Shown: in pieces, positions 1 to 38,400 of the stretch
Layout: each line of letters starts with the position of its first letter
How positions within the stretch are numbered: the first letter of the stretch is position 1
IMG/VR virus record: IMGVR_UViG_3300031839_001157
Location: 1 to 38,981 of that record
Origin: a virus
Length of the DNA stretch: 38,981 nt
Direction: 5' to 3' (one strand)
The notes under the pieces: model-generated
Told to the model about the DNA's origin: nothing
Database searches by the model: none
The model's input: only the letters and a program-made list of their open reading frames with translations
Translations under genes and position numbers: made by a program

Positions 1-1495
1 TATAAACCTCCCCTTTAACCGCTGCTTCAGTCTCACTTCTAACCCTCTCACCTACAACATCGACCGCTTCTTCAAGATTACCTTTCTTTTGCTCTGTAGC
101 TTGACCCATAAAAGCTTTAAGGCTTTCATCATCAATCAAGCTCATATCCATTTCTTGCCTTACAACATTAGCTTGCAGCACTCTTTCTTTGAACTCTATA
201 TCATTCTTTGGCTCAAGTGCATCAAGCATCCTAGCATAACTAGCTTCTCCAGGAAAACTAAAACCTTCTACAGTCCTGCCAAAGGCTTCTAATGCCTCTG
301 GTTCAACCAATGTTTCACGGCTCAGCTCTTGCATAACTGTGCCTTCTTCCGTAGCGACGGGTTCAACAGTTGAATTTGTCTTGTAGTCTTCTAGCTCAGT
401 ATACAAGACCTCTCCAAGAACTGTTGGAACTTCTTCAGCAGAAAGAACGCCTGCATCAGCCGCTGCATAAGCTTCTTCACGAAGTTTAGAAACTACAGTC
501 ATCATGCTCTCTCGAACATTTTCATCTTCTATATTTCGAGCCATTTCATACAGCTCACTTGAAGTGCGTAAGATTTCTTCTCGAGTCTTACCAATGCTTG
601 TTGGAGTCGCAGCTGCAATTTTAGCAGCTTGTTCATCTTGCTCTGCAGAAGTATATTTCTTTTTGTCTTGTTGTCTGCTAATATACCGTTCGCTTATTAC
701 TGAAGGATTAACCATCTCGTTGATTCCAAAGATTAGAGTTGGATCAACTAAGTTAGAAAGTATTTCTTCTTTTGTAAAGGGATTTTCAAACTCTCCAGTT
801 TCAGCATATTTAATACCTGAACTTCCTAGCATTGCCGCAAGGTTAATAGTTGTTTCACCCGCAATACCTGCAAGAGCGCGATCACCCAACGTTTGTGCTA
901 TTAGTCGCTCTCCAACTTGTTCTCCAGTTTCGCTAAGTATTTTTTGCGTTGTGCCTCGACCAAGAGCAGATAAAGTTCCACGAGCGCCAAGACTTGCAAC
1001 ACCTCCACCAAAACCAGCAAGACCTGCTGAAAGTGCAGCTTGTCCATACGAGTCAGTTTGTTCTAAAGTGTTTGCTCCTGCTAGTGCAGCAGAACTAGCT
1101 AATCCTAAAGGTATTGCTATAGGACCGGCTGCTCCACCCGTGGCAGCAGTAATGCCAAAACCTGCGATTGCAGGGAGGAAGTCTACAACTCCACGTAGAG
1201 CTTCCTCCCCGACTTGTCGCCCGGTTGCTTCATCAGCACCGAAAAATTCAAAAAGGTCTGCACCTCTTTCACCCAACCATTCTTCAGCACCACCAGCATT
1301 TCTGTCTAAAAACAGGTTAATTTCATCACTGGCTGATTTGACGGTGTTTTCAAACCTATTACCTACACCAGCGTCGAATACATTGGTGCCAGTAAGTTGG
1401 TTAGCAAGTTGGGAAAACTCGTTAAGGTTTCCAAAAGCTCCACCGGTTTGTCCGTGGAGTTGTCGGACATCTGAGAATGATAAAGGGTTAATCAT
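1..1495 (-). CDS. Giant internal-virion-like protein, N-terminal part (partial at window edge)
   Basis: The frame is open on the minus strand from ATG at 1495 to the left edge with no stop (498 codons). The protein starts MINPLSFSDVRQLHG and has hydrophobic Gly/Ala-rich stretches at about residues 105-185 that could be membrane segments, followed by a charged Glu/Lys-rich part. The start lies 2 nt after the stop of the upstream gene (1498). If the contig is circular, the frame continues without interruption into the minus-strand frame that enters at 38981 (same phase; junction codon AAC) and ends at 35362, giving 1704 residues. A very large protein with membrane-like segments at the end of a podovirus late operon is typical of internal core or ejection proteins; this role is inferred. 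I recognise no enzymatic motif here. Confidence 0.8.
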   Translation of the reverse strand, partial: MINPLSFSDVRQLHGQTGGAFGNLNEFSQLANQLTGTNVFDAGVGNRFENTVKSASDEINLFLDRNAGGAEEWLGERGADLFEFFGADEATGRQVGEEALRGVVDFLPAIAGFGITAATGGAAGPIAIPLGLASSAALAGANTLEQTDSYGQAALSAGLAGFGGGVASLGARGTLSALGRGTTQKILSETGEQVGERLIAQTLGDRALAGIAGETTINLAAMLGSSGIKYAETGEFENPFTKEEILSNLVDPTLIFGINEMVNPSVISERYISRQQDKKKYTSAEQDEQAAKIAAATPTSIGKTREEILRTSSELYEMARNIEDENVRESMMTVVSKLREEAYAAADAGVLSAEEVPTVLGEVLYTELEDYKTNSTVEPVATEEGTVMQELSRETLVEPEALEAFGRTVEGFSFPGEASYARMLDALEPKNDIEFKERVLQANVVRQEMDMSLIDDESLKAFMGQATEQKKGNLEEAVDVVGERVRSETEAAVKGEVY

Positions 1496-3720: not shown

Positions 3721-4443
3721 TTATAGGTTTCTAAGTTTGCTACGTTCTTGTTGAACAATAGTGTTAATTTGATCTCTAAGAGATTTATCAATAAGTCTTA
3801 AACCATCTTTAGGAATACCTTGGCGTTGATGGCTGTCTGAACCTTTAGGTTCAAATACACAGCATTCTAACGCTCTGTCAAAATCTTCTTGATCTACGTC
3901 TAAATTAAATGTGTTAATAAGTTTTTCCAACATATACTCATGTCCAGCCGTCCATATAGTATCGTAATTAAAAGCCACGTGATTTTTGCAACAAAAACTT
4001 TTATCATGCTTTAACCACATCTTAGCTTGGCTCCGAACAAACTCTAGCCTAGTGTCAATAAAGCAGTTCACATAAACTTCGTCTGGTAAATCTTTATAAA
4101 GCTTATTAAACTCTTCAAACGTAGAATGAACAGATTCTTTGTTTGCAGGTCGTTTTTTACCATTGTAAAGAATATACGATGCTAGCACGTCTAAAAATCT
4201 ACGTCTGACTGAGATAATTCCTACTTTGTCAGCCATAGCCAAGTCTAATAAATCTCTTGGTACAAGTTCATGTGTTTTAATAACTCTGTTATTTCCTTCT
4301 ACAAAAGACTCAGATTCTTTTTCTGAAAGCCTCCAACGAAGCTTAGATTTAAAAGTCTCATATTTTACATTTAGCAGTCCGCATATACCACGAGTTACAA
4401 GCGTAGAACCACAGCGCATAAAAGTAGGAACAACGTAATTCAT
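3721..4443 (-). CDS. Sulfotransferase-like protein (PAPS-dependent)
   Basis: 240 aa. Hallmarks of the sulfotransferase fold are visible: a 5'-phosphosulfate-binding loop at residues 6-14 (PTFMRCGST, matching the P-x-x-x-x-G-S/T-T type), KTHE at 56-59, and a 3'-phosphate-binding element at 80-90 (RRRFLDVLASY, with Asp85, Ser89 and Tyr90 as in R-x-P-x-D-x-x-x-S-x-Y). The family moves sulfate from PAPS to hydroxyls of sugars, lipids or tyrosine. It overlaps the upstream glycosyltransferase by 4 nt, so the two are probably co-translated. Their place between tail proteins and internal virion proteins suggests modification of a virion glycan or a host envelope glycan; this target is inference. The substrate cannot be read from sequence. 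Confidence 0.82.
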   Translation of the reverse strand: MNYVVPTFMRCGSTLVTRGICGLLNVKYETFKSKLRWRLSEKESESFVEGNNRVIKTHELVPRDLLDLAMADKVGIISVRRRFLDVLASYILYNGKKRPANKESVHSTFEEFNKLYKDLPDEVYVNCFIDTRLEFVRSQAKMWLKHDKSFCCKNHVAFNYDTIWTAGHEYMLEKLINTFNLDVDQEDFDRALECCVFEPKGSDSHQRQGIPKDGLRLIDKSLRDQINTIVQQERSKLRNL

Positions 4444-5384
4444 AGTGCTTTTAAAGTGTGTTTAATTAAATTTGCAGAATTAAAACTTAGTGCTGTATTA
4501 AAGCCGTTAAAGTTTTTTGTCTGTCCGTCTTTGCACGCAGCTTTCAAACAATCAACTGCGCTGTCAAGCTCAGGATAAGCCCACTCACCTAAGTAAAACT
4601 CATCGTCAACAGCATCAAGTTTGTAGTCAATCAAGTAAGAATTTTCGTCATTGCAAAAATCCATATTACCAGAATAACCAGTGGCTACAACTTTTTTACC
4701 CATAGCCATCATTTCAATCATGTGCAAACCAAAGCCTTCACTCTTATGAGGGCTAAACAGTATGTCACAATTATCATACAACGAAAGCAAATCATTACGT
4801 GTAAGTGAGTCAGTAATCCACTCGCAGTCTAAACTTTCAGCTTGTTTTTTGAAGTACTTTAATAAAGAGCTTTTTGAGTTTGATACCTTAAATTTAACTT
4901 TAAAGGCTATAGACTCACTAAGTTTATTTAATGCTTCAAGAGCAAAAAATGGGTTCTTTCTAGATACTCGACTATCGCAATTAAATGCAACTAGAATAAC
5001 AGGAACGTCATCTGCTGCGTCGGGATTGTATTTATAATCATTTACACAGTGTGGAACCAACTTTACTGGTTTACCAAGCGTTTCAAAGATGGACTTACAA
5101 TAATTACTAGCAGTCCATATCTCTGAGTAATACGTTGCATGTTCAGCAAAGTCAACCGCAAGCTCTGAACTTTCCCACATCCAGTAAGCAATGTTATTGC
5201 CGTCAAGAAACTTAGGAATATGTATTAAGCTGCGAGTAGAACGTGGCAAACCATGAACGTAAAAGTCGTCGTAGTCTTCTGCACTAGATACATTACAAAC
5301 AGTTTTAATTGCTGCAGCTGTTTGCTTGTAAGCTGTGGAGATTCCACAAACGCCATTAACACCATGCAAATTCAACCTTCTCAT
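4440..5384 (-). CDS. Glycosyltransferase, GT-B fold (GT4-like)
   Basis: 314 aa. The C-terminal half shows the nucleotide-sugar site of GT4-type enzymes: SRKNP at 141-145 and SPHKSEGFGLHMIEMMA at 211-227, with the E-x7-E pair at Glu216 and Glu224, followed by GKKVVATGYSGN. The N-terminal half holds the acceptor Rossmann-like domain with HGLPRS near 44-49 and WESSE near 70-74. The length is a little short for GT4 but complete. The start overlaps the upstream small gene in a TAATG arrangement and the end overlaps the sulfotransferase by 4 nt. Genes of this type in phages may decorate virion proteins or host surface sugars; target unknown. Confidence 0.87.
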   Translation of the reverse strand: MRRLNLHGVNGVCGISTAYKQTAAAIKTVCNVSSAEDYDDFYVHGLPRSTRSLIHIPKFLDGNNIAYWMWESSELAVDFAEHATYYSEIWTASNYCKSIFETLGKPVKLVPHCVNDYKYNPDAADDVPVILVAFNCDSRVSRKNPFFALEALNKLSESIAFKVKFKVSNSKSSLLKYFKKQAESLDCEWITDSLTRNDLLSLYDNCDILFSPHKSEGFGLHMIEMMAMGKKVVATGYSGNMDFCNDENSYLIDYKLDAVDDEFYLGEWAYPELDSAVDCLKAACKDGQTKNFNGFNTALSFNSANLIKHTLKAL

Positions 5385-7586: not shown

Positions 7587-7606
7587 AGCTTATAGCACTA
7601 AACGGT

Positions 7607-7619
7607 TTCAATGGTTGAA
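7607..7619. repeat. Copy of palindrome TTCAA-N3-TTGAA
   Basis: TTCAATGGTTGAA lies directly 3' of the stop of the 61-aa gene and 21 bp upstream of the adaptor-like gene (minus strand). On the minus strand it is followed by ACCGTTTAGTG, nearly the same downstream sequence as the copy at 19069. Confidence 0.7.
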
Positions 7620-7805
7620 TTACTTGGCGTGACCGCGCAAACCAAGCTTTCCAAATGCCCCATGTTTTACTGTGTGGCGTTTGGTTGTATTTGTTCCAGT
7701 AGCAAAACGCTCGCGCGCTTCGGTGCTAAGCATAGCTGTATCTTTTACATCTACTGCTGAACTTGCGGTTACTTCATCGTTTACTCCGACTCGATGTCTT
7801 TTCAT
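7620..7805 (-). CDS. Small basic head-region protein, unknown
   Basis: 61 aa, basic, with His and Arg at both ends (starts MKRHRVGVND, ends LGLRGHAK) and an acidic/Ser-Thr centre. No membrane segment or known motif. It lies between the candidate decoration protein and the adaptor-like gene, so a head-completion or minor head role is possible. The start ATG at 7805 has no Shine-Dalgarno sequence. Confidence 0.6.
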   Translation of the reverse strand: MKRHRVGVNDEVTASSAVDVKDTAMLSTEARERFATGTNTTKRHTVKHGAFGKLGLRGHAK

Positions 7806-12539: not shown

Positions 12540-12545
12540 GACGCT

Positions 12546-12558
12546 TTCAACGATTGAA
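12546..12558. repeat. Copy of palindrome TTCAA-N3-TTGAA
   Basis: TTCAACGATTGAA lies in the 23-bp gap between the large terminase stop and the portal start (minus strand). It occupies the place of the portal ribosome-binding region, so a protein bound to DNA or RNA here could affect portal expression (inference). Confidence 0.7.
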
Positions 12559-12562
12559 GATG

Positions 12563-14158
12563 TTAAACTCGATATCTATTTGAGGTTTGTTGTTTAGGCA
12601 GGCTAGGTGTTCCCATAGTCGGTAAGCCAAAAGAACCTGACAGAATGTTTTTAGTTGAGCTTAAATTGATAGGATTGACTGTAACTTTATAACCACCAGG
12701 CTCAACATATTTCATACCAGAAAGCACTGCTCGATAAAGGTTCTCCATCATGTGGTCGTCTTTGTCTACTGGTTTTTCAGTATTAGGTTTCCATACGTAA
12801 CGATCAATTTCAAAAAGGAATGTATCGCATCCTTCATGCACATAAAAAGTAGGACGATCTGCTTCGTCACGGTCTCTTAATTTTTTGCGAGTTGCTTGTA
12901 TGCCGTAAGCAAGATCTTTTACTGCTGGCACAATGTTAAGCCCTTGCTCGTAAAATACATCTGCCATGCAGGTTCCATCAATTGGATTCTCATTCCAAGC
13001 AATAGGGTCACAAATAAAATCTTCCACAACGTAACCATCTACGACTGCTTTAATGTGTTCACAGATATCTGAAATTAAGCCAGGACGAAAAAGTTCTTGG
13101 TATTGAAAAGTGTATCCTTCTGGCGAAGTTGCAAAAAATGACACAGCATGTGGTGTCTTAGGATGCGGGTCAATAAAAACTCTAATTGTGTAATTGCGAG
13201 GCGGAGTAATAACGTCTTCCCAACCTTTAGGGCAGTCCCTGTAAACATGTAGATCTTGAGAAAACTCTTTGTAAACAACACCAGCTAAAGCAGCAGGAAT
13301 ACCAGAAATACGACACTCTCTTTCGTCAGCTGATATGTCTGCTTCAAAAGCTTGTAGCGCTTCTTTACTAATGTGCGGATTATCGTATGAACTGCCGGTT
13401 AGAACGTATTTAGTTAAATTTTCTTCTTCTACGTTTTTGTAACCTTCGTCAAAGGTAGAACGTGTAAGAGAGCGTGGAATAAAGTAATCGTTAATCCATG
13501 CCTCGGTAATTGGCGTGCAAGTAAACCAAGCGGAGCCTGCACGATCAACTAGACCACGAGATACGGCAACCCACATTTCTCTAGGACAAGGCTCATCAAC
13601 GTGAATCCAGTCCCAGTTAGATGATTCCAAGCCCATCTTGTTTTGCATGAAAGATCTCACTGTTTCCAGATGAATTGTTGAATGTCCACCGTGCACACTT
13701 TTAATAACTATTTCTGCGATACCTGTTCCAGAACGTCCTTTTTTGCAAGACACTATTGCATCTTTTGGAAGAAAGTGAAAGAGTTTACCTCTTGATTTTC
13801 CAGGTTCAGTGTTTGTAAAAATTTCATGTGCTTTATCCCAATCTTGCACAATAATACAACCTTTAGTAGAATGCTTAGGAATACCTTCGTATCTTGCTGG
13901 ATCGTCTTTAGCATACCAAGGACGCTCTCCTAATGCATACGCACAATCTTCTGCTGCACCACAGTCAGACTTGCCAAAACGGTTGCCTGTTCTAAGATAA
14001 CGTCTTTTATATTTTGCAGCACGATGGAAAGTGTCTTGTTTGGGATGAGGAGTATAAAACGCCAATCCGTTCTCCTCACGCAGTTGTTTTCTGCGTCGGA
14101 GCAACTCTAGCTTTTGTCGTCTTTTGACGATTTCAAGCTGCTGTGCGTTATCACTCAT
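12563..14158 (-). CDS. terL: Terminase large subunit
   Basis: 531 aa. The ATPase domain has Walker A at 56-64 (RTGNRFGKS) and Walker B at about 184-190 (WIHVDEP, with catalytic Glu189). The C-terminal RNase H-like nuclease has its acidic residues at Asp330 (VFIDPH), Asp384 (FICDP) and the DDHMMEN element at 467-473. The protein is full length for the family. It cuts and pumps DNA into the procapsid through the portal. The start overlaps the upstream coiled-coil gene by 8 nt. The small subunit gene is about 2.6 kb upstream, separated by basic protein and lysis genes. Confidence 0.95.
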   Translation of the reverse strand: MSDNAQQLEIVKRRQKLELLRRRKQLREENGLAFYTPHPKQDTFHRAAKYKRRYLRTGNRFGKSDCGAAEDCAYALGERPWYAKDDPARYEGIPKHSTKGCIIVQDWDKAHEIFTNTEPGKSRGKLFHFLPKDAIVSCKKGRSGTGIAEIVIKSVHGGHSTIHLETVRSFMQNKMGLESSNWDWIHVDEPCPREMWVAVSRGLVDRAGSAWFTCTPITEAWINDYFIPRSLTRSTFDEGYKNVEEENLTKYVLTGSSYDNPHISKEALQAFEADISADERECRISGIPAALAGVVYKEFSQDLHVYRDCPKGWEDVITPPRNYTIRVFIDPHPKTPHAVSFFATSPEGYTFQYQELFRPGLISDICEHIKAVVDGYVVEDFICDPIAWNENPIDGTCMADVFYEQGLNIVPAVKDLAYGIQATRKKLRDRDEADRPTFYVHEGCDTFLFEIDRYVWKPNTEKPVDKDDHMMENLYRAVLSGMKYVEPGGYKVTVNPINLSSTKNILSGSFGLPTMGTPSLPKQQTSNRYRV

Positions 14159-17397: not shown

Positions 17398-17519
17398 GTA
17401 GCAACCTACTATATGTATAGCAAATAGCAACGCGTATTTTATTTTTTACGCATCGTTTAGGACTTTTTTATACCTGGCACATTGCTTTAATTTTTCCACA
17501 TTACTATCTGTCTGACCAA

Positions 17520-17532
17520 TTCAACACATGAA
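17520..17532. repeat. Near-copy of palindrome TTCAA-N3-TTGAA
   Basis: TTCAACACATGAA has one mismatch to the palindrome but shares the downstream TGCGTTTA with the copy at 19069. It lies in the divergent hub, about 120 bp upstream of the first late gene. Confidence 0.5.
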
Positions 17533-17695
17533 TGCGTTTAAGTCTATTACAAGCAAGGCGCAACTCTCGTTCGATTCTAAGTTTCTCACTCGCGTGTGGA
17601 TGTTTTATGTTTAAGGTTTAGAAACGTTTTGTTGTCGAAGGAACCGAGGGTGATAATAATAGGGCCAGCAGGCGTCGAGGGGAAGGGAACCCCCC

Positions 17696-19049: not shown

Positions 19050-19054
19050 CCAAT

Positions 19055-19099
19055 GCCCACTAGACAAATTCAACTATTGAATGCGTTTAGTGGGCTTTT
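19055..19099 (+). terminator. Rho-independent terminator with the palindrome in its loop
   Basis: Outer stem GCCCACTA (19055-19062) with TAGTGGGC (19088-19095), then TTTT. The inner part contains TTCAA-CTA-TTGAA (19069-19081), which extends the hairpin. It begins 6 nt after the stop of the 74-aa gene. A strong intrinsic terminator that also carries the repeated palindrome. Confidence 0.78.
19069..19081. repeat. Copy of palindrome TTCAA-N3-TTGAA
   Basis: TTCAACTATTGAA inside the terminator hairpin. The core and flanks (ATTCAACTATTGAAT) are identical to the copy at 33783, which is also in a terminator-like hairpin. Confidence 0.75.
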
Positions 19100-19148
19100 G
19101 TGTATGAGAAAGTAACTGAAAATACATTGAATGATTGCTAAATATATC

Positions 19149-19176
19149 TTGATCTTTTAGGATTATATGGTATATT
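19149..19176 (+). promoter_or_regulatory. Sigma70-type promoter, probably leaderless transcript
   Basis: -35 TTGATC (19149-19154), 16-bp spacer, -10 TATATT (19171-19176). The last bases of the spacer and the -10 (TGGTATATT) repeat those of the promoter at 17762-17789. The expected start, 6-8 nt after the -10, coincides with the ATG at 19184. Confidence 0.62.
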
Positions 19177-20869: not shown

Positions 20870-21112
20870 ATGAACCCGTTCCGCTCCACATGTCATAACT
20901 GCAACTGCATTATACCTTACAAACGTGCAATATTAAACTACACAACTTGTCTTTCATGCTCCGACCAATTTACTAAACGACGTTGGATGTATGACACCTA
21001 CGACGAACACGATTGCGTAACTTCCCATCTTACATATGAAACAAATAAAACCAACATTCAACTCTACGAAGAAACTGACTCACCATATTCAGAAAGTAAT
21101 GAGTCACTATGA
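20870..21112 (+). CDS. Small zinc-ribbon-like protein
   Basis: 80 aa. Cysteines at CHNCNC (8-13) and CLSC (27-30) give a C-x2-C ... C-x2-C pattern that could bind zinc. The C-terminal half is acidic and polar. It starts 3 nt after the previous gene and its end overlaps the MarR-like gene. It may be a small nucleic-acid or protein-binding adaptor; function unknown. Confidence 0.6.
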   Translation: MNPFRSTCHNCNCIIPYKRAILNYTTCLSCSDQFTKRRWMYDTYDEHDCVTSHLTYETNKTNIQLYEETDSPYSESNESL

Positions 21113-21419
21113 CTTACGTGCATTCAAACTGTGTGTGGCTATGGTGCTTCTAAACGATAAACCTCTAACAGTCTCTACCCTAGCCAAGCTACTTGGTTGC
21201 TCCAATGCAAACATAACAGGCTTGCGCAAAACTCTAGAGGCGCGCGGTCTTATTATATCGGAGCGTCCTGCGACAGATAATCGTAAAGTTTATCTATCTC
21301 TAACCAGCAAAGGAGAACAATTCTTAAAACACTACTATGGAAGTGACATCATCTCAAATACTGAGCAACAGCCTTCCGCCGCTGCCACCGTTCTGGAAAA
21401 GACTAACAATCAAGTTTGA
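21099..21419 (+). CDS. MarR-like winged-helix transcription regulator
   Basis: 106 aa from ATG at 21099, which overlaps the previous gene by 14 nt; an in-frame ATG at 21036 would overlap it by 77 nt and is less likely. A winged helix spans about 17-75: LTVSTLAKLLGCSNANITGL for the HTH, then TLEARGLIISERPATDNRKV and YLSLTSKGEQFL for the wing, the classical MarR pattern with the basic D-N-R-K wing. MarR dimers bind short palindromes, so this protein is a natural candidate to bind the TTCAA-N3-TTGAA sites (inference). It lacks the long flanking helices of full-length MarR proteins. Confidence 0.75.
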   Translation: MSHYDLRAFKLCVAMVLLNDKPLTVSTLAKLLGCSNANITGLRKTLEARGLIISERPATDNRKVYLSLTSKGEQFLKHYYGSDIISNTEQQPSAAATVLEKTNNQV

Positions 21420-21546
21420 CTTTCCTCCAGGCAAATCACCTAACAACTTCGATGAACTCTTAAAACAGTTCATCACTAACCTTCAAGAAGAAGGTATAAC
21501 TACAACAATAACACACAACCCATTAACTATTACATTACTAAGATGA
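21337..21546 (+). CDS. Small protein, unknown
   Basis: 69 aa; Pro-rich start (LPPLPPFWKRL near 13-23), then a helix and two short strands (GITTTITHNPLTITLLR). Its first 83 nt overlap the MarR-like gene in another frame. Its stop overlaps the next start by 4 nt (ATGA). No in-frame ATG lies after the MarR stop, so the long overlap has to be accepted if the gene is real. Confidence 0.5.
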   Translation: MEVTSSQILSNSLPPLPPFWKRLTIKFDFPPGKSPNNFDELLKQFITNLQEEGITTTITHNPLTITLLR

Positions 21547-21812
21547 AATTGAAAATTAACTCTATTTACCTGCACGAAACCTATGGCGAAGAAACGCTTA
21601 GCGGAAGTGTTTCCCTTCGCTCACTAGATGACTCAGTCAAGCAAGAGATTAAATTGACGCGTTCAACCATTGAATCCCTGCTAGATGTTATCGAACCCTT
21701 GGTAAACAAGACGATTGAGTCAACTTATGGAGAAGCCAGTAGTGTTGAGTTCCAAAGCAATCTACGACTTGGTATGAAAGACGCAGATGCAGAGGTTATT
21801 AATTCATATTAA
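21543..21812 (+). CDS. Unknown small acidic protein
   Basis: 89 aa, acidic. N-terminal strands (KLKINSIYLHETYGEE) are followed by a helix (LLDVIEPLVNKTIES near 46-60). One TTCAA-N3-TTGAA palindrome lies inside the gene at 21662-21674. It is the last gene before the promoter at 21841. No family recognised. Confidence 0.62.
   Translation: MKLKINSIYLHETYGEETLSGSVSLRSLDDSVKQEIKLTRSTIESLLDVIEPLVNKTIESTYGEASSVEFQSNLRLGMKDADAEVINSY
21662..21674. repeat. Copy of palindrome TTCAA-N3-TTGAA (intragenic)
   Basis: TTCAACCATTGAA inside the 89-aa gene, about 170 bp upstream of the promoter at 21841. On the opposite strand it is followed by CGCGTCAA, like other copies. Confidence 0.7.
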
Positions 21813-25055: not shown

Positions 25056-25615
25056 TGGAAGACATTGAAGAAATACTTGTCGTAGACATAGAAACAACAG
25101 GCTTCAAAGCAGGAGAAGACTTTATACTTGAGCTAGGAGCTGTAGAATTAAACTTAATAACTGGAAAGAGAACTACGCTCTTTGACAAAGTGTTCAATCA
25201 CCCTGACTTAACAGCAAAACACCATGACGCATGGATCTTCAAGAACGGTTACATGACTATAGATGAAGTTCGTAAAGCAAAACCAATCGACGAAGACGTA
25301 GAAGAACTAGAGACTTTGTTCTCTGAATTTTCTGGTTGCATTACAGCATGGAACAGATTCTTTGATTCTAAGTTCCTTGAATACGAAGGCTTTGACTTAG
25401 GCACACCTTTAGCCTGCCCTATGCTACAATCAACTAGTTACTTCAAAATACCTAAGAAATCTGGTAACGGTTACAAATGGCCAAAAGCACAAGAAGCATG
25501 GGACCGTTTGTTTCCTGACAATCCACGAACAGAACTCCACCGTGGAGGAGACGATGCTGACTTTGAAGCAATCATAATCAAAGAGCTTTACGACAGAGAG
25601 GTCTATGAACCATGA
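25055..25615 (+). CDS. DnaQ-like 3'-5' exonuclease (DEDDh)
   Basis: 186 aa. Exo I VVDIETTGF (Asp11, Glu13), Exo II AWNRFFDSKFLE (Asn100, Asp104) and Exo III HRGGDDADF (His162, Asp167) give the DEDDh set of metal ligands and the catalytic His. Length is normal for a stand-alone proofreading or trimming exonuclease. The polymerase encoded downstream already has its own exonuclease domain with a variant Exo II site, so this protein could proofread in trans or process RNA or DNA ends (inference). Coupled to neighbours by 1-4 nt overlaps. Confidence 0.87.
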   Translation: MEDIEEILVVDIETTGFKAGEDFILELGAVELNLITGKRTTLFDKVFNHPDLTAKHHDAWIFKNGYMTIDEVRKAKPIDEDVEELETLFSEFSGCITAWNRFFDSKFLEYEGFDLGTPLACPMLQSTSYFKIPKKSGNGYKWPKAQEAWDRLFPDNPRTELHRGGDDADFEAIIIKELYDREVYEP

Positions 25616-25824
25616 TGGAGATAAAAGAAGTATCTGACCTCAAAGAATTAAAAGACGACAGTTATTACTGGATAAAAGTAAAAACTGTTTGGAGAATTAG
25701 ACGCGCAAACATATCGAACGGCAATCTGTTCTTAGGTGAAGTTCCTTACTCGCACATACGCAGACGCTTTCCACATGCAAAAATTGCAGGTCCAATGTCT
25801 TTGCCAGACCAATTCAATTATTGA
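25612..25824 (+). CDS. Small protein, unknown
   Basis: 70 aa, basic, strand-rich (YYWIKVKTVWRIRRANI near 18-34), perhaps a small beta barrel. The stop codon lies inside a TTCAA-N3-TTGAA palindrome (25813-25825). Two adjacent ATGs (25612 and 25615) could start it; the first overlaps the previous gene. No family recognised. Confidence 0.6.
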   Translation: MMEIKEVSDLKELKDDSYYWIKVKTVWRIRRANISNGNLFLGEVPYSHIRRRFPHAKIAGPMSLPDQFNY

Positions 25825-25825
25825 A
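25813..25825. repeat. Copy of palindrome TTCAA-N3-TTGAA
   Basis: TTCAATTATTGAA covers the stop of the 70-aa gene and ends 6 bp before the MazG-like start. As at 12546, it sits where a ribosome-binding site would be. Confidence 0.7.
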
Positions 25826-25831
25826 TCCCTT

Positions 25832-28156: not shown

Positions 28157-29734
28157 ATGAGTGATCTATACAAACAAATTCTAGCCAAGTCTACAACAGG
28201 CACTAGCACTATACCTATCGAAGAAATTCACATTGCACCAGAACGTGCACGTGAGGATACTCCTGAAGTCCGTAGATACATTGACGAAGAACTTATTCCT
28301 TCTATCGTTGACAACGGACTAATTCACCCGCCTGTTCTTAACTTCAAAGACGATCTACCAGAAGGTAAAAGATGTGAGCTTGTTGCAGGTTGGTGTAGAA
28401 CCACAGCTTTTCAGATGCTTGGTCTCACAGAAATTCCATACACATACAGGGAGAACATGTCTACCGTAGAGTATCGCGAAGTCGAACTCGAAGAAAACTT
28501 TCGTCGCAAGGACATGACATGGCAAGAGAAAGTATGTGCGGTAGCAGACATTCACAAACTCAAAGCACAAAAAGCAGGTGCCGAAGGAACTAAGTGGGGA
28601 CAAGCTCATACAGGCAAACTGCTTGGCACTTCAGCAGGACACATTAACAACTGTCTAAAGATCGCAGCGTCAATCAAATCACATGACGAAGAAATTAAGA
28701 ATGCTGCAGGTGTGCAAGAGTGTTTACAGATTTATCTCAAACGCAAGGACGACAAACTTGCTTCTTACATTGCAGAGCAAGCCGGAGTGCAAACAACTAA
28801 AGCCACTCCTGTCACAGGTGCAGGTCCAATACGCGGTGAAGCAGGCATCAACCTGTCTGATGTCGTAGACACAGCTAGCCAGACAAGTTCAAGCGTTGAA
28901 TCCGTTAGCGCAGCACCAACTATTGAGTATACGCAAAACACAAAGTTTGATCTAAGCAAAATTATTTACAATGAAGATAACAGAGACTGGTTCTCCCGAC
29001 AAGATGATGAAAGCGTTGATCTTGTTTATACTGATATTCCCTTTGGTATTGATATGGATAACCTTGATTTCAATGCGTCTGATTTGGATAGAGTTGCTGA
29101 CGCGCATGACGTCGAAGAAAACTTAGAGCAGATGCCAGTGTTCCTTGAGAATGCTTATAGAGTTTTAAAAGACAGTAAATACTGTGCGTTCTGGTATGAC
29201 CTCGCGCATCACGAAAAGCTTTTAAACTGGGGCAAAGACATCGGCTTTAGTGTTCAACCTTATCCTCTTGTATGGTGCAAAACTCATCCTTGCAGAAATC
29301 GTGCTGGTAATATCTGGTGGACCAAAGCTGTCGAGTATGTAATGGTAATGCGCAAAGGTCAAGCTACGTTACGTAATCCACAAACTAAAAACTACTATCT
29401 TGCTGATGGCTCAGCTGAACGTAAGATGCAACGCAATCCGTTTTCAAAACCTTTCGAAGTATCTAAACAAGTCATCGAGCCATTAGGTATTCCTGGTGAT
29501 TTTATGGTTGATCCTTATGCAGGTGAAGGCTCTCTTGTTCGTGCCGGTCTTAACATGGGTTTTCAAGTTGTAGGTATTGAGAAAGAGAAAACACATTTTG
29601 ACCGTATGGGTGAACACGTTCGAAACGTGCTTACTGCAATGACACGAGGCAAAGCACAGTTTGTAAGTTTTGACGAAGAGCATGCTGAGTTAAATCGTAA
29701 AGTTCAAGAAGCAGATGACGCAATCAAGTTCTAA
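28157..29734 (+). CDS. ParB-like domain fused to DNA methyltransferase
   Basis: 525 aa. The N-terminal ParB/Srx-like domain (about 18-130) shows IHPPVL (56-61), ELVAGWCRTTAFQML (74-88, in place of the usual G-x-R-R) and EENFRRKDMTWQEK (112-125). A polar linker (about 215-260) leads to an N6/N4 amino-methyltransferase. There, catalytic motif IV is DIPF (293-296, a variant of D/N/S-P-P-Y/F) and precedes SAM-binding motif I, DPYAGEGS (452-459), which is the beta-class order. It probably methylates adenine or cytosine amino groups in phage DNA, perhaps against restriction. A TTCAA-N3-TTGAA copy lies within the linker coding region. No cognate endonuclease is seen. Confidence 0.87.
   Translation: MSDLYKQILAKSTTGTSTIPIEEIHIAPERAREDTPEVRRYIDEELIPSIVDNGLIHPPVLNFKDDLPEGKRCELVAGWCRTTAFQMLGLTEIPYTYRENMSTVEYREVELEENFRRKDMTWQEKVCAVADIHKLKAQKAGAEGTKWGQAHTGKLLGTSAGHINNCLKIAASIKSHDEEIKNAAGVQECLQIYLKRKDDKLASYIAEQAGVQTTKATPVTGAGPIRGEAGINLSDVVDTASQTSSSVESVSAAPTIEYTQNTKFDLSKIIYNEDNRDWFSRQDDESVDLVYTDIPFGIDMDNLDFNASDLDRVADAHDVEENLEQMPVFLENAYRVLKDSKYCAFWYDLAHHEKLLNWGKDIGFSVQPYPLVWCKTHPCRNRAGNIWWTKAVEYVMVMRKGQATLRNPQTKNYYLADGSAERKMQRNPFSKPFEVSKQVIEPLGIPGDFMVDPYAGEGSLVRAGLNMGFQVVGIEKEKTHFDRMGEHVRNVLTAMTRGKAQFVSFDEEHAELNRKVQEADDAIKF
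28888..28900. repeat. Copy of palindrome TTCAA-N3-TTGAA (intragenic)
   Basis: TTCAAGCGTTGAA, inside the linker of the methyltransferase gene, followed by TCCGTTAG, which matches the downstream part shared by other copies. Confidence 0.65.
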
Positions 29735-32155
29735 ATGGCTATAATTGTTCCAAACCAAATGCCGGTAGTTGACAAGCCGGAAAAGATTGCGCTGATCGGT
29801 GGCTCACCTGGAAAGGATGAAACCGAGATGCGCGTGCCTTTTGTAGGTAGTGGTGGTAATATACTATCACAGCTACTCAACAGAGCAGGCATCTTAAAGT
29901 CTGCTTGTTTCCTAGGCAACGTCTCACAATCTTCTCCTACTTATGGTAACGAAGATAACTTTTCATGGGACGGTTGGCAGGTGCAGCAAGGCTTAGAGCA
30001 GTTAGGCCGAGACATTAAAGCCTTTGACCCTAACGTCTGTGTGTTGATGGGCAAGCTGGCGATGCGTGCCGCAGGCAAAACAGGTGATAGCGTATACAAT
30101 ATGCGTGGCACCATGTTTCGATGTGTAGATACCAATTCTCCTTTGTATGGTCGTAAGTGTATTATTACGCACGATCCATATATACTGACAGGTCAATACA
30201 AGCTAGTTCCTTTAGTTGCTTTTGATCTAAAACGTGCAGCGGAAGAAGCGTTAGACAAAGATCTTGAGCTGCCGCAACGCACCTTTGACCTTCATCTAAC
30301 TCCTCCAGAAATAATAGATAAACTAGACTCTTGGCCGACAGGCCACGTCGCATCTATTGACATTGAAGGTGGAGTAGACCCTGAGAAGTATGGCGGTATT
30401 ACCTGCCTTTCTATTGCATCTTCGCCGCAGTATGCTTTTATCATTGACTTCAAAAATATGTCTCCTCCTGTGATGCTTGACGTTTACAAGTCTCTAAAGC
30501 GTTGGATGGAGAATCCTGAGATTCCAAAGATTGCGCAGAACTTTATGTATGAAAACTTCTGTATTCCTTGGAGACACAAAATGTATGTCGCAGGTATGCA
30601 TTGGGATACCATGCTATCTGGCTGGGAGATATTTCCAGAGCTGCCTAAAAGTCTAGCTACGCAGACATCAATCTGGACACGTGAACCTTACTACAAGTTC
30701 GAGAGAAAGATACACGATGACGAAACTCACAACGCTTACTGCTGCAAAGATACAACTGTAACATACGAGATTTATGAGCGGCAAAAAGAGTATCTTGACC
30801 AAGAAGAATTTGCACAAGCTAAAGCACACCTAGACTTCAATCACAGCTTACTTAGACCATTTGCATACATGCAGCTGAGAGGTATAAAGTATGAAAGTGA
30901 GCTTGCACAAAACGAGGCTTCCGCGCTTTGGGCTGAGATGATGGAGCTTCAAACCTGGATTGATTTAGTAAATGGAGAACCACTTAATATAAACTCTCAT
31001 GTTCAGCTTAAAAAGTTCCTATACAACAAACTTCAACTAACTAAGCAGTATGTTATAGAGAAAGGAAGAAAGACCAACAAGCTTGCTTCCGACGTAGTCG
31101 CTCTGCTAAAGCTCCTTAAATTGCATGACTCAGACGTAGTATATCACATCCTTAGATGGCGACACTTAGAAGGTATTCGTCGTCAAGTGGATTTCAAGTT
31201 AGATGATGACGGTCGTGTCCGGTCTGGTTACAATGTTGTTGGCACAGAAACAGGTCGTTTATCTTGTAAGACCTCTGACTCAGGCGGAGGTTACAATTTG
31301 CAGACTACAACTAAACGACTGCGCAAATGTTTCGTTCCAGACGAAGGCAACTACATGTTTCAAGTTGACCTTTCTGGAGCAGACGGTTGGACTGTTGCAG
31401 CTCATTGTGCAAGGTTCGATGACTTCGCTATGTTAGAAGATTATCGCTCCGGAGTCAAACCTGCTAAAGTCATCTGTGCTTTGTCTATTCTTAAAGACAA
31501 CTCTATTGCAACACTTCCATCACACGACCTTAAAGAAATTATCGACGGTTTAGACATTCCGCCTTGGCTGTATGCTGCTGCTAAAGCAGTTCAACACGGC
31601 TCCAACTATGGTATGGGTGGACCGACTATGTCTAACAACATCCTTAAACGATCTTGGAAAGACGATGGCAACCCTGTTCACGTTGCACCTAAAGATTGTC
31701 TTGCATTACAAACACTATACTTTTTACGCTATCGTGGTGTCAAAGCATGGCAAGCTTGGTGCAAACAACAACTAGAACAATTCGGCTGGATGGATTCTGC
31801 ATCAGGTCATCGAAGGCACTTCTTTGGTCGTCGACGTGACAACGCTACACTTCAAGCTGCATATTCGCAAGAGCCGCAGGCTAATACCACTTATGCCACT
31901 AATTTAGCTCTAACAAACCTTTGGCAGGATCCAGAAAACCGCGACAAAAATAAACTCATCATTGAACCACTGCACCAAGTTCACGATGCACTCATTGGTC
32001 AATTTCCAAAAGACAAAGAGGACTGGTCTGTTAAAAAACTTATAGACTATTTTTCTAACACATTAACAATAGCTGGCACCGAAATGATTATTCCTTTTGA
32101 GGGCGAGTATGGCCTTTTCTGGGGTGATGATTCAGCTGGCACTATATCCCTATGA
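29735..32155 (+). CDS. DNA polymerase family A with N-terminal UDG-like domain
   Basis: 806 aa. Residues about 15-175 resemble a family 4-type uracil-DNA glycosylase fold: GGSPGKDE (22-29, the usual GEAPG position), VPFVGSGGNILSQLL, GNVSQSSP (61-68) and ITHDP (144-148). The usual Fe-S cysteines are absent. A 3'-5' exonuclease follows: DIE (209-211), QNFMYE (268-273, Glu for the usual Asp) and YCCKD (335-339). The polymerase has motif A DLSGAD (545-550), motif B with Lys617 and Tyr625-Gly626, and motif C HDA (750-752). The usual Glu of motif A is Asp550 and the Glu of the canonical HDE is Ala752. Main replicative polymerase of the phage. Start is 1 nt after the methyltransferase stop. Confidence 0.92.
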   Translation: MAIIVPNQMPVVDKPEKIALIGGSPGKDETEMRVPFVGSGGNILSQLLNRAGILKSACFLGNVSQSSPTYGNEDNFSWDGWQVQQGLEQLGRDIKAFDPNVCVLMGKLAMRAAGKTGDSVYNMRGTMFRCVDTNSPLYGRKCIITHDPYILTGQYKLVPLVAFDLKRAAEEALDKDLELPQRTFDLHLTPPEIIDKLDSWPTGHVASIDIEGGVDPEKYGGITCLSIASSPQYAFIIDFKNMSPPVMLDVYKSLKRWMENPEIPKIAQNFMYENFCIPWRHKMYVAGMHWDTMLSGWEIFPELPKSLATQTSIWTREPYYKFERKIHDDETHNAYCCKDTTVTYEIYERQKEYLDQEEFAQAKAHLDFNHSLLRPFAYMQLRGIKYESELAQNEASALWAEMMELQTWIDLVNGEPLNINSHVQLKKFLYNKLQLTKQYVIEKGRKTNKLASDVVALLKLLKLHDSDVVYHILRWRHLEGIRRQVDFKLDDDGRVRSGYNVVGTETGRLSCKTSDSGGGYNLQTTTKRLRKCFVPDEGNYMFQVDLSGADGWTVAAHCARFDDFAMLEDYRSGVKPAKVICALSILKDNSIATLPSHDLKEIIDGLDIPPWLYAAAKAVQHGSNYGMGGPTMSNNILKRSWKDDGNPVHVAPKDCLALQTLYFLRYRGVKAWQAWCKQQLEQFGWMDSASGHRRHFFGRRRDNATLQAAYSQEPQANTTYATNLALTNLWQDPENRDKNKLIIEPLHQVHDALIGQFPKDKEDWSVKKLIDYFSNTLTIAGTEMIIPFEGEYGLFWGDDSAGTISL

Positions 32156-32969: not shown

Positions 32970-33771
32970 GGACAAGAAAAAGCATGTAACTTATCCCTGC
33001 TTTATTCAGCCTAAGATTGATGGAGTCCGAGGCATTTACAACAGTGAAATACTTCAAACACGTGACGAAAAGATCTGGAATAACTCAGTAGTAGAACATA
33101 TCACTTCCGAGTTAACTAACCTGCCTAAACACATTCTACTCGATGGTGAGCTTTATGTCCACGGCTGGCCATTGCAGAAAATTAACGCTGCAATTTCTGT
33201 GAATCGTTTGCACCCAACTAAAAATACTCCGCATGTGCAGTTTCATGTATTCGACTGTATAGATGCTAGTAACTTAACTATGCCTTTTTCTGAGCGATTC
33301 AACTTGCTCCAAGAAATATTACCAGCAAACTCCTTAAACATCTTTTCTGTTCCAACTTACAAAGTTCACACAGAAATAGAAGCCGACCAATATTACTCAC
33401 ATTTCCTTGGACTAAACTACGAAGGTATGATGTATCGTCTTAATCGTCCATACGGCTTGCTAGACGACTGCGGTAACAAAGAAAACCGTTGGCCGTATCT
33501 ACTCAAGCGCAAAGACTGGTTAGACGAAAACTGTGAATGCGTTGACGTAATACTAGGAGAAGAAGGTTCTAAATACGAGAACGTTGTAGGTTCATTAAAA
33601 CTACGTTTTCCTAATGGTATAATCTTCTCAGCTGGTTCTGGCCTTTCTGACATTCAACGACACCAATACATGGACGCTCCTCCTATTGGCACTATGGTCA
33701 GAATAAAATACAAATGCCTTACAGAAGGAGGCAGACCACGTGAACCTATTATCGCCGCTGTGCTAGACTAA
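32941..33771 (+). CDS. ATP-dependent DNA ligase
   Basis: 276 aa. Motif I QPKIDGVRG carries the adenylated Lys25. Further motifs are LLDGELYVHG (67-75, Glu70), FHVFDC (101-106), EGMMYR (161-166) and LLKRKD (187-192) of the adenylation domain. A C-terminal OB-like domain contains VGSLKLRFPNG and IKYKCLTEGGRPREP. It is a compact ligase of about T7 or Chlorella-virus size, sealing nicks left by the phage polymerase and nucleases. The start at 32941 overlaps the previous gene by 29 nt; the ATG at 32950 is a close alternative. Confidence 0.92.
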   Translation: MIPMLAHHYKDKKKHVTYPCFIQPKIDGVRGIYNSEILQTRDEKIWNNSVVEHITSELTNLPKHILLDGELYVHGWPLQKINAAISVNRLHPTKNTPHVQFHVFDCIDASNLTMPFSERFNLLQEILPANSLNIFSVPTYKVHTEIEADQYYSHFLGLNYEGMMYRLNRPYGLLDDCGNKENRWPYLLKRKDWLDENCECVDVILGEEGSKYENVVGSLKLRFPNGIIFSAGSGLSDIQRHQYMDAPPIGTMVRIKYKCLTEGGRPREPIIAAVLD

Positions 33772-33818
33772 GCTCTAACGCATTCAACTATTGAATCAAA
33801 CGTAATTTTAGGGCTTTT
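33771..33818 (+). terminator. Terminator-like hairpin after ligase, with palindrome
   Basis: Outer stem AGCTCTAA (33771-33778) with TTAGGGCT (33808-33815, one G-U pair), then TTTT. The palindrome TTCAA-CTA-TTGAA (33783-33795) lies inside. The plan is the same as at 19055-19099, ending the replication operon just after the ligase stop. Confidence 0.68.
33783..33795. repeat. Copy of palindrome TTCAA-N3-TTGAA
   Basis: TTCAACTATTGAA inside the hairpin after the ligase; identical over 15 bp to the copy at 19069. Its reverse complement continues TGCGTTAG. Confidence 0.75.
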
Positions 33819-33824
33819 ATATAT

Positions 33825-33902: not shown

Positions 33903-33931
33903 TTGACAAATCCCCCATTGCATGATATATT
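33903..33931 (+). promoter_or_regulatory. Consensus sigma70 promoter, leaderless transcript
   Basis: -35 TTGACA (33903-33908), 17-bp spacer, -10 TATATT (33926-33931). The predicted start lies at or just before ATG 33940, giving a leaderless mRNA as at 19184. It drives the last two rightward genes. Confidence 0.72.
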
Positions 33932-35477: not shown

Positions 35478-38400
35478 GGTTAGGTTTAGATCCTAGCTGT
35501 GATTGAACTTCTGCCCTTTTAAGCAGCCTAGCAACCTCGCTAGGTTCATTGCTATAACCCATAGATCGAAGCAAAGCCTCTTGACCAGCCGAACCTTTAA
35601 AAGTAGCTTCCCTTCTAGCATCTCTAGGAAACGCTTCTTTCTCTGCTCGGTCTGCAACAAGGCCAGACAAACGCTGCTTTTCGCTTTCAAACTCACTAAA
35701 AGCTTTTTCAGTCGCACCCATATCTAGTGCCATCTGAACTTTTTCTGAACTCCAAGCTAGCCGCTCAATCTCTTTTCTTGCTTCACTTGCTGGCATCTCT
35801 GACAGCGAATCAGCCACTTTAATACCTTTTCTTCTTATAACGTCTTCATGCTTACGTTGCAGACGATTAATAGTTCTTTCTCTGTCTATTCGTTGTGGTG
35901 TAAATCCAATAGCATAAGCTACCTTTTCTCCAAAGTTAGCATCAATCAATTTGCCACCTCCCGAGTCTCTCAGCTCTCCACCGTGCCTTAGCAGGTGAAT
36001 AGGCTTCTTCCAAGCAATAGGAACAACATCCTCTAATGCTTGCCCAGGGTTGCCTTCTCTAATCAAGTTAATAGCACCCTTAGAGACATTTTCAACGATT
36101 GAACCCGTCGGTCCCATTAGTTGCCCCAGAGACCAACCATCATAAGGGTTAAGTCCCATCACACCGCCGACAGCTAAACGACTTGCAAAGTCAGGTGCGC
36201 CTGGTAATACTTCTTTAGAAAAGGTATTTGCTGCTCCATTAAGTATCAAGTCAGCCAAGATGCCACCGTCTTCTCGTTCATCATCTTCTAATAGACCTGC
36301 AAGACCTTCTCGAGCTTCTTTCTCAATTTCAAGTCCAGTATATTTTTCTAGCAGTGCCATAGCTGATCCTACAAAAGGAAGTCCTACTAAACCTGCAGAA
36401 GCAAACTGTGCAATAACCATTGCTGTTAAAGCTTTGCGTGCATTTTTCCTGTCAGTTGGTGTCATGTCAGGATACTGCGTCTTATTAAAAGCCGTTTCAC
36501 CGTAACGTCGCATCATTGACAACACACCAAAGTTATATCCTTGCAACGAATACATAGCTTGACCAAGTCCTCTAAATGCGCCTGTTCCTTCAAACATTGC
36601 AACAGGCCTATTAGCTTTGCCGCCTGAATAAGTAACTACACGAGCAAATTCAAGTGCTGACTCCATTGCGGCTTTATGGTCTAATCCGTCAGCTTTTGCT
36701 TTGTTGTATCCAGCAATGAGGGCGACGCGAGCATTGTATTGTGTAAACTGCTGATAGAGTTTCAGCGAGTTTCTTGCTAGGTTCATTGCAGGAGTTATTC
36801 CCCACCTTGCAAGTGGATTTTTGGATTTCTCACCGCCCCTCATTGCCAGACCTGAAAGATCTGAGTTTGCTGCAGGATCAGGCTCAATAACTTCACTAGC
36901 CCATGACATAGAAATTTCGCCCCTTTCAGCAGCGTATTCCATCAGTTCGCCATAGTCTTTGTTGTCCCAAAACCTGTGGTTGTCAATACCCTTATAAGCC
37001 TTTTGTTTGTCGCTTTCAGTAAGTCTACCAACAAATGGTAGTTTAACTTTAGCCAGACGTTTTAGATTAGAAGGTATCTGTAGTGCAGAAAACTTACCAA
37101 CTTCTTTTTCAGCCTGAATAATATACTTCATTGCACCCAGAAAACTTTCACCTCGTGCTATTAACTCAGGCACATAAGTGTTAACTGGCTGTGTAAGTTC
37201 AATAGCATGAGAGCTAAAGTTCAAGCCAAGAAAGTATGCAGCATTTGCTTGCACAATATCTTTACCAATCTTCGTATCTGGTTCGAAGAAGTTTTTAATG
37301 TGTTGGTCCAAGTCACCTAAATGTGCAGCAACCTTTTCATCGTTACGCCATGCCGGATCGGACTGACGATAGTTGTATCTGTGATAGAATAATTTTTTGT
37401 TTAGCTTTCGTGTAGCAGAGTTCCAGTAAGCCATTTGCGTCGAAAACATATCAAGATACTGACGACCATCAGAAAGCTTTCTGCGCGATCCATTCTTAAT
37501 AATGTCGCTTGCCATCAGGTCTTTCTCAAATTCTGAAGCATAATTAAACTCAGCTTTGAGACGCTGCTTCTGCTCATCAGACAATGTAGTCATAGAGTCT
37601 ACAAGCGACTTGTTCAATGCATCCATGCGTGCAAGTTCAGAAACAACACGATCTTCACCTACAAAGTGTGGTTGTCCTCTGCGAACACCTTCCACCATTA
37701 TGACCTCTTTTCCTCTGGCTTTAAGCTCCTTAGCTTCAAAGGCTTTAGCTTCTTTAGCTGAATCAAACGCAGCACCACCAGTCTTGCCATCTTTGTCTTT
37801 CCAGCGAACAAAGAACTTACCTGTTCTAATTTCAGAGAAGAAATAAGGCTTCTTCTTGAATTGTGCTTTAAGCGTCTCTAAACCATTAAAACCCTTTTCA
37901 GCAAGTTCATACGCCTTGGCAAATCCGTCACTATCAGGAAACTCACTTGCTACTTTTTGTAGCATAGTTCTACCAGCTTCTACACTAGCAGGATCACCTG
38001 ACTTCATTAAAGTTAAAGCTTCATACATGACATTAGACAAGCCCATTGCGTTTTCACGTAAGCTGTCAGGATAGCGGCTTGCAATATAGTTAGTTACAAG
38101 TGCTTCGTTAGAGGCTCTAACAATACGAGGAATTTCTACGTCAGTAAACTCTTTCATTGCCGCAGACATTCTAGATTTAATGTGAATAACTGCTTCTCTC
38201 TCTGAAGGCTTAAGGTCTTTCAGTTTCTTGTGTAGCTCAGGTTCTACTTCAGCTAAGTCACCAAATGACAACTCCTTAGCGTGAGTGTTTTGTGCACGCA
38301 TCCAGTCATCTCGCAGCGACTGTAGCTTAGGACTTTTTTTAACGCGCTCAAACTTTAAGCTGTCATCGCGTGATGAAAACTGTGCGTTACCTGCTGCATC

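Follow-up and report, generated by a model that had tools for sequence, protein, structure and literature searches.

Dispersed phage palindromes as predicted recognition sites of a ParB-DNA methyltransferase fusion protein

The window, which here means the whole 38,981-base viral record analysed, carries two hairpins resembling intrinsic terminators, both with the same exact 15-mer, ATTCAACTATTGAAT, at the apex (19068-19082 and 33782-33796) and TTTT behind the stem. Inspection of the sequence thus bore out the shared 15-bp core of a preliminary description made from the letters alone, and the further copies it had placed at the portal (12546) and MazG (25813) genes are also real; its list was nevertheless incomplete and the palindrome is longer than it had supposed. 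TTCAA-N3-TTGAA is the most over-represented dyad of the window, with nine copies against 0.2 expected, and the same arms at any other gap length gave zero copies in the window. With its outer arms the full unit spans 25 bp, about (G/A)AC-N3-TTCAA-N3-TTGAA-N3-GTY, and a palindromic weight matrix returned exactly 10 sites in the window, scoring between 23.7 and 33.6, the next-best position scoring 8.1. Site 4, absent from the earlier list, has one half-site mismatch. A chance origin of the palindromes was ruled out by shuffles and by a second-order Markov null. Elsewhere in the window, positions 29735-32155 encode an unusual fusion in which a uracil-DNA-glycosylase domain (Pfam UDG, 4.1e-12) forms the N-terminus of DNA polymerase A, and a glycosyltransferase (3721-5384; Pfam Glycos_transf_1, 3.1e-12) lies with a 240-aa ORF among the structural genes.

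Table 1. Palindromic sites, terminator-like hairpins and the ParB-methyltransferase gene in the window.
Feature	Position	Strand	Sequence	Context or basis	Matrix score
Site 1	356..380		GACGGGTTCAACAGTTGAATTTGTC	Within gene 2-1495 (-)	33.6
Site 2	7601..7625		AACGGTTTCAATGGTTGAATTACTT	Intergenic	26.5
Site 3	12540..12564		GACGCTTTCAACGATTGAAGATGTT	terL-portal gap, covering the portal ribosome-binding region	26.3
Site 4	17514..17538		GACCAATTCAACACATGAATGCGTT	Intergenic, between terS and rightward early genes	26.7
Site 5	19063..19087		GACAAATTCAACTATTGAATGCGTT	In first terminator hairpin (19055-19099)	32.9
Site 6	21656..21680		GACGCGTTCAACCATTGAATCCCTG	Within ORF 21543-21812	27.1
Site 7	25807..25831		GACCAATTCAATTATTGAATCCCTT	End of ORF 25612-25824, directly before likely MazG start	29.3
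Site 8	28882..28906		GACAAGTTCAAGCGTTGAATCCGTT	Within the ParB-methyltransferase gene itself	30.7
Site 9	33777..33801		AACGCATTCAACTATTGAATCAAAC	In second terminator hairpin (33771-33818)	23.7
Site 10	36085..36109		GACATTTTCAACGATTGAACCCGTC	Within gene 35362-38979 (-)	29.4
Intrinsic-terminator-like hairpin	19055..19099	+	GCCCACTAGAC/GTTTAGTGGGC (stem)	Stem, then TTTT; holds site 5	
Intrinsic-terminator-like hairpin	33771..33818	+		Directly after ligase stop codon; holds site 9	
ParB-methyltransferase gene	28157..29734	+		Pfam ParB_N and N6_N4_Mtase; PDB profiles; AlphaFold2; covariation with sites	

RNA folding of 19050-19108 gave a hairpin at 19055-19095 of -23.8 kcal/mol (z -6.0), which no shuffle equalled, and folding of 33767-33822 gave one at 33771-33815 of -10 kcal/mol (z -3.2), so that the anatomy of a terminator, hairpin plus T-run, is strong at the first locus and weaker at the second. 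A promoter-like TTGACA-17-TATATT (11/12) lies at 33903-33931 and a weaker one at 19149-19176, each behind a terminator, and for this reason both hairpins resemble real transcription-unit borders. Termination in both directions, as had been suggested, does not fit the T-tracts, which follow both stems on the plus strand only, no clear T-run being present on the minus strand. The proposed tie between the site and operon ends did not hold either: terminator-like hairpins hold 12 of 325 sites, two of them in the window and the others in relatives, compared with 13 of 1,200 random intergenic points, and co-directional junctions are preferred over convergent ones. Terminator-embedded copies do recur in relatives (for example G018, G027, G048 and G060). 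The terminator placement is incidental; most simply, the palindrome is cost-free in a hairpin already needed there, and would have been placed in short intergenic gaps where a hairpin is free or pre-existing. What stands of the preliminary reading is a predicted protein-binding palindrome found twice inside terminator-like hairpins, while its operon-end link, its bidirectionality and, as described below, its binder were abandoned.

Relatives were gathered by terminase and ParB-methylase searches in IMG/VR, many of the records being 25-50 kb in length with genes called simply as longest ORFs, and their dispersed dyads were mined without presupposing any letters. A collection-wide scan using just the 25-mer pattern gave mostly single hits among the matches listed and did not enter the evidence. 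In five records (G024, G027, G045, G060 and G080) the matrix strayed onto low-complexity repeats when refined automatically; the seed was kept fixed for G024, G027 and G060, and the statistics omit G045 and G080. The architecture of the site is shared, with lineage-specific letters and 6-16 copies per genome, by relatives whose TerL identity falls to about 40%. At a TerL identity of about 41-45%, the window's own palindrome sequence was found in 10 copies in G031, five in G027 and five in G041, a partial record; it was also present in phages identified through the ParB-methylase alone (11 copies in G052, 10 in G053). The nearest large relative, G003 (TerL 64%), has zero copies of the window's form and nine of AN3GTTCN7GAACN3T. 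Other lineages carry GTN4ATCAN5TGATN4AC (G030, G019), GTN4GTCAN5TGACN4AC (G057), TNGGTNAN7TNACCNA (G012, G047, G011), CCN2TTCAN5TGAAN2GG (G040) or ACN3ATNNAANTTNNATN3GT (G036), among other forms. Odd-centre dyads of this architecture reached log10P < -11 in 35 of 51 ParB-methylase records, a few of which score through low-complexity repeats, the minimum among shuffles being -8; no strong dyad was found in the remaining 16, some of them fragments and some with diverged proteins. The best shuffled dyad score was beaten by 44 of 54 records. The annotated GenBank genome of Desulfofustis phage LS06-2018-MD01, which encodes a ParB-methylase, has nine evenly spaced copies resembling TGCTATGTCCCAAATTGGGACATAGCA, and the control LUZ24, a distant relative without an annotated ParB-methylase, gave no dyad above noise. 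In a different phage group, G038 and G039 (L221-L225) contain 10-11 copies of GTAC-N5-GTAC against 0.2-0.3 expected.

The ParB-methylase is present in all large TerL relatives compared. The window protein consists of a ParB nucleotide-binding fold (residues about 18-116), a KorB/Noc-type helix-turn-helix (HTH, 122-213), a disordered linker and an N6/N4 DNA methyltransferase domain (262-505). Its profile matched Noc (1.4e-19, positions 7-205) and N6-adenine methylase (6.5e-24) in the PDB, and Pfam detected N6_N4_Mtase at 1.6e-14; Pfam ParB_N was found in 31 of 40 homologues, the window protein scoring 20.6 bits, under the 26.3 cut-off. An AlphaFold2 model (mean pLDDT 84) has two domains and the disordered linker; in structure comparisons it matched CcrM, Noc, KorB (8qa9) and ParB-parS, with Z values of 23.4 for CcrM and 13.6 for Myxococcus ParB. 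The evidence for Noc and KorB comes from Foldseek and from sequence profiles, because methylases fill most of the VIA-align list. Across 51 ParB-methylase proteins the G and R of Box I and the E and N of Box II are kept in all 51 and the Box II R in 50, the D and P of methylase motif IV (D-x-P-Y/F) in 49 and 48, and the G of motif I (F-x-G-x-G) in 50. The N-terminal part thus has the ParB fold with the Box I and II residues of a ParB/Noc-type protein, the central HTH is homologous to that of ParB/Noc by the Noc profile match and the modelled recognition helix (residues 160-174, A160 corresponding to ParB residue 173), and the C-terminal half has the motifs and fold of a beta-class N6/N4 DNA methyltransferase, the activity itself being predicted. 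The ParA-type motif KxGGxGK[ST] is absent from window ORFs of at least 120 aa, in which the sole P-loop protein found is an AAA_24 protein; with no ParA candidate in the window, a classical ParABS partition system is unlikely. In one related record, G017 (L216, 4880-7140), a ParB protein without a methylase match adjoins a separate N6_N4 methylase gene, as in a split fusion.

Which protein reads the site was addressed by covariation, using every 8-residue window of five shared proteins (ParB-methylase, TerL, portal, PolA and primase). After correction for identity, the five windows that best predicted motif similarity all lie in the ParB-methylase recognition helix. For base 6 of the half-site, the ParB-methylase residue equivalent to 173, the helix's first specificity residue, ranks first among 2,400 columns, although the margin in this single-column test is small (z 5.4, versus 5.1 for the next column). 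Glutamine at this residue goes with A (3/3), arginine with G (3/4), lysine with G or C (3/4) and other residues with T (11/12). None of 20,000 permutations gave as strong an association among 23 representatives below 45% identity, shared ancestry of the sequences making this and the other P values optimistic. The exceptions are G037 (R with T) and G017 (N with A), and lysine is ambiguous (G, C or T). At motif positions other than base 6, columns of other proteins rank higher in the single-column tests; all-position association is noisy where a motif position hardly varies, and the window-based and base-6 tests were preferred. In ParB, R173 contacts G1 of parS, and in Noc, Q173 (Q158) contacts A1 of the NBS, as established by crystallography and mutagenesis (PMC7383237). 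The key helix residue of the ParB-methylase aligns with both of these, and natural variants of an independent family, compared by sequence, reproduce the published ParB/Noc structural rule, the predicted site and the specificity residue of the HTH agreeing by covariation. G045, whose mined dyad is a low-complexity repeat, encodes an SH-type helix; as this helix foretold, the genome contains seven copies of TNGGTNA-N7-TNACCNA against 0.04 expected, and this form is present in all five SH-helix genomes and once elsewhere. Taken together, these comparisons make it very probable that the ten palindromes are dispersed binding sites of the phage's own ParB-methylase.

The sites are more evenly spaced than expected, with a median gap of 4.5 kb in 31 genomes and a gap CV of 0.51 versus 0.94 (P=3e-27) in a null that kept each random site coding or intergenic like the site it replaced. 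Intergenic positions hold 140 of 303 sites against 20.5 expected, and the remaining sites, about half, lie within genes. By gap type the intergenic sites number 113 in co-directional, 12 in convergent and 14 in divergent gaps, or 16.6, 7.8 and 6.8 per 10 kb, respectively. The start of the portal gene carries a site in 9 of 28 phages, compared with 0.6 expected. This layout is unlike that of promoter operators or operon-end terminators and fits loading points serving the whole genome.

The model that we favour is that the fusion acts as an orphan ParB without ParA and that the palindromes are its parS-like recognition sites, both half-sites being read by the HTH of a dimer according to the ParB/Noc code, as the covariation suggests. 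If it behaves like ParB, Noc and KorB, the dimer would close as a clamp on binding nucleotide and then slide away from the site, and sites every 4-5 kb would let such clamps cover the entire genome, so that the tethered methylase might modify phage DNA everywhere and thereby mark or protect it, for example against restriction. Clamp closure and sliding are inferred from the family. The residues that contact the nucleotide are unchanged in 50-51 of the 51 proteins; 17 of 28 ParB-fold proteins assayed elsewhere bound no NTP (PMC12704722). Spreading of methylation from the sites is suggested by the near-complete retention of the catalytic motifs and by the methylase gene alongside the ParB gene of G017, and the sliding-methylation step, argued from analogy, stands at about even odds. 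A more tentative proposal, which we put at somewhat below an even chance, is that the system provides self-recognition, the evenly spaced sites loading a nucleotide-gated sliding-clamp methylase so that only DNA with such sites would be methylated end to end, whatever the intervening sequence. If so, site and recognition helix would diversify together, giving lineage-specific modification.

Several other explanations of the palindromes were weighed against this model. The core can pair in RNA, and the repeats might be chance or structural ones selected solely as terminator hairpins; yet the three bases at the centre are frequently C-N-A, which cannot pair, the sites near 12552 and 7613, outside the terminators, form structures no more stable than those of shuffled sequence (z 0.04 and -0.16), and the fixed-spacing arms are conserved. 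The RNA hairpin was therefore rejected as the selected feature, and a DNA palindrome for a dimer is more likely to be what is conserved; the folding results, the gap in matrix scores and the residue-base covariation together contradict the hairpin or chance explanation, to which we give practically no weight. MarR proteins bind palindromes, and the window does encode a MarR-family protein (ORF 21036-21419), the binder named in the preliminary description. A comparison with 15 related records, among them the ones carrying 10 and five copies of the palindrome, did not find its gene, and no relatives of the protein were found in viral contigs, whereas the HTH residues of the ParB-methylase co-vary with the site; MarR operator identity fails on co-conservation, and it is very improbable that the sites function as operators of this regulator.

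Transcription control, in which the ParB-methylase or another dimer bound at the sites would halt RNA polymerase or make it terminate, in the manner of stoperators or of KorB at the RK2 promoters that it silences, would account for the copies in terminator hairpins and at portal starts, and the stoperators of Cluster A mycobacteriophages are likewise dispersed (PMC9283540). The sites, however, are symmetric and orientation-free, about half of them are within genes, divergent and convergent gaps are poorer in them than co-directional ones, and promoter regulation has no need of near-regular spacing, so that we consider this unlikely. The same even spacing would suit a role in DNA organisation or segregation, in which the protein bridges or condenses phage DNA for packaging, a replication focus or plasmid-like maintenance and methylation is secondary. 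ParB and Noc use dispersed or spread chromosomal sites, and gp90 of Mycobacterium phage Catdawg represents the ParB part alone; since Catdawg combines a dispersed palindrome with a ParB-like protein lacking a methylase, dispersal by itself is no proof of a methylation role. Against organisation as the main role, no ParA-type Walker motif was found in the window, nearly all members of the family keep the methylase motifs, and the G017 protein, itself without a methylase match, is directly adjoined by a methylase gene. We regard it as a minority reading, with roughly one chance in four.

Under the favoured model, an anatomy of some ten sites at even intervals in each genome points to action on the whole genome rather than to gene control, and the HTH and its sites would offer a case of natural co-diversification across many phages. 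Noc with its NBS in Bacillus subtilis and ParB with parS share with the present system a homologous nucleotide-binding fold and HTH, palindromic sites and the residue-173 code, and the sites of Noc are likewise scattered, in that case over a chromosome. Unlike either, the protein described here is phage-encoded, has a fused DNA methyltransferase and is accompanied by no ParA that could be found, and its sites are odd-centre palindromes with extra outer arms, about 10 of them evenly spaced in 39 kb, with phage-specific specificity. KorB of plasmid RK2 is a structure match (8qa9), and its operator, OB, is an odd-centre 13-bp palindrome present in several copies per replicon, resembling the sites here. 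OB sites are located at promoters; KorB has no methylase, and the sites here are not enriched in divergent gaps. The stoperators of Cluster A mycobacteriophages also occur as many dispersed copies with lineage-specific variants, but they are asymmetric, oriented with transcription and bound by the immunity repressor, and identity with them was rejected because the window sites are palindromic.

In cluster O mycobacteriophages a 17-bp repeat, TGTTCGG-N3-CCGAACA, is present in 34 copies; the published description assigns it no function and considers a transcriptional role unlikely (PMC4351075). Like the sites here, these are dispersed odd-centre palindromes, many of them lying between genes or close to a gene start, and their phages encode a ParB-like gp90; unlike the sites here, they number 34 and are unevenly placed. 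The gp90 of Catdawg (L439, 5179-6687, minus strand) has the HTH, no methylase domain being found in it by Pfam, and is a candidate binder of the repeats. The key position of gp90 is occupied by serine, consistent with T at base 6, a sequence-based lead that offers a candidate explanation for the repeats. Fusions of the ParB-CTPase fold with N6_N4 methyltransferases, the same domain combination as in the window protein, have been catalogued without an assigned function and are enriched in phages (Kaljevic et al. 2025, PNAS, PMC12704722), no DNA site being reported for them as far as the excerpted text of that paper goes, and no report of such sites was found in the openly licensed literature. 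The fusions themselves are thus already known; new here are their sites, the spacing and the recognition code, through which a family common in phages gains candidate cognate sites and a one-residue recognition rule.
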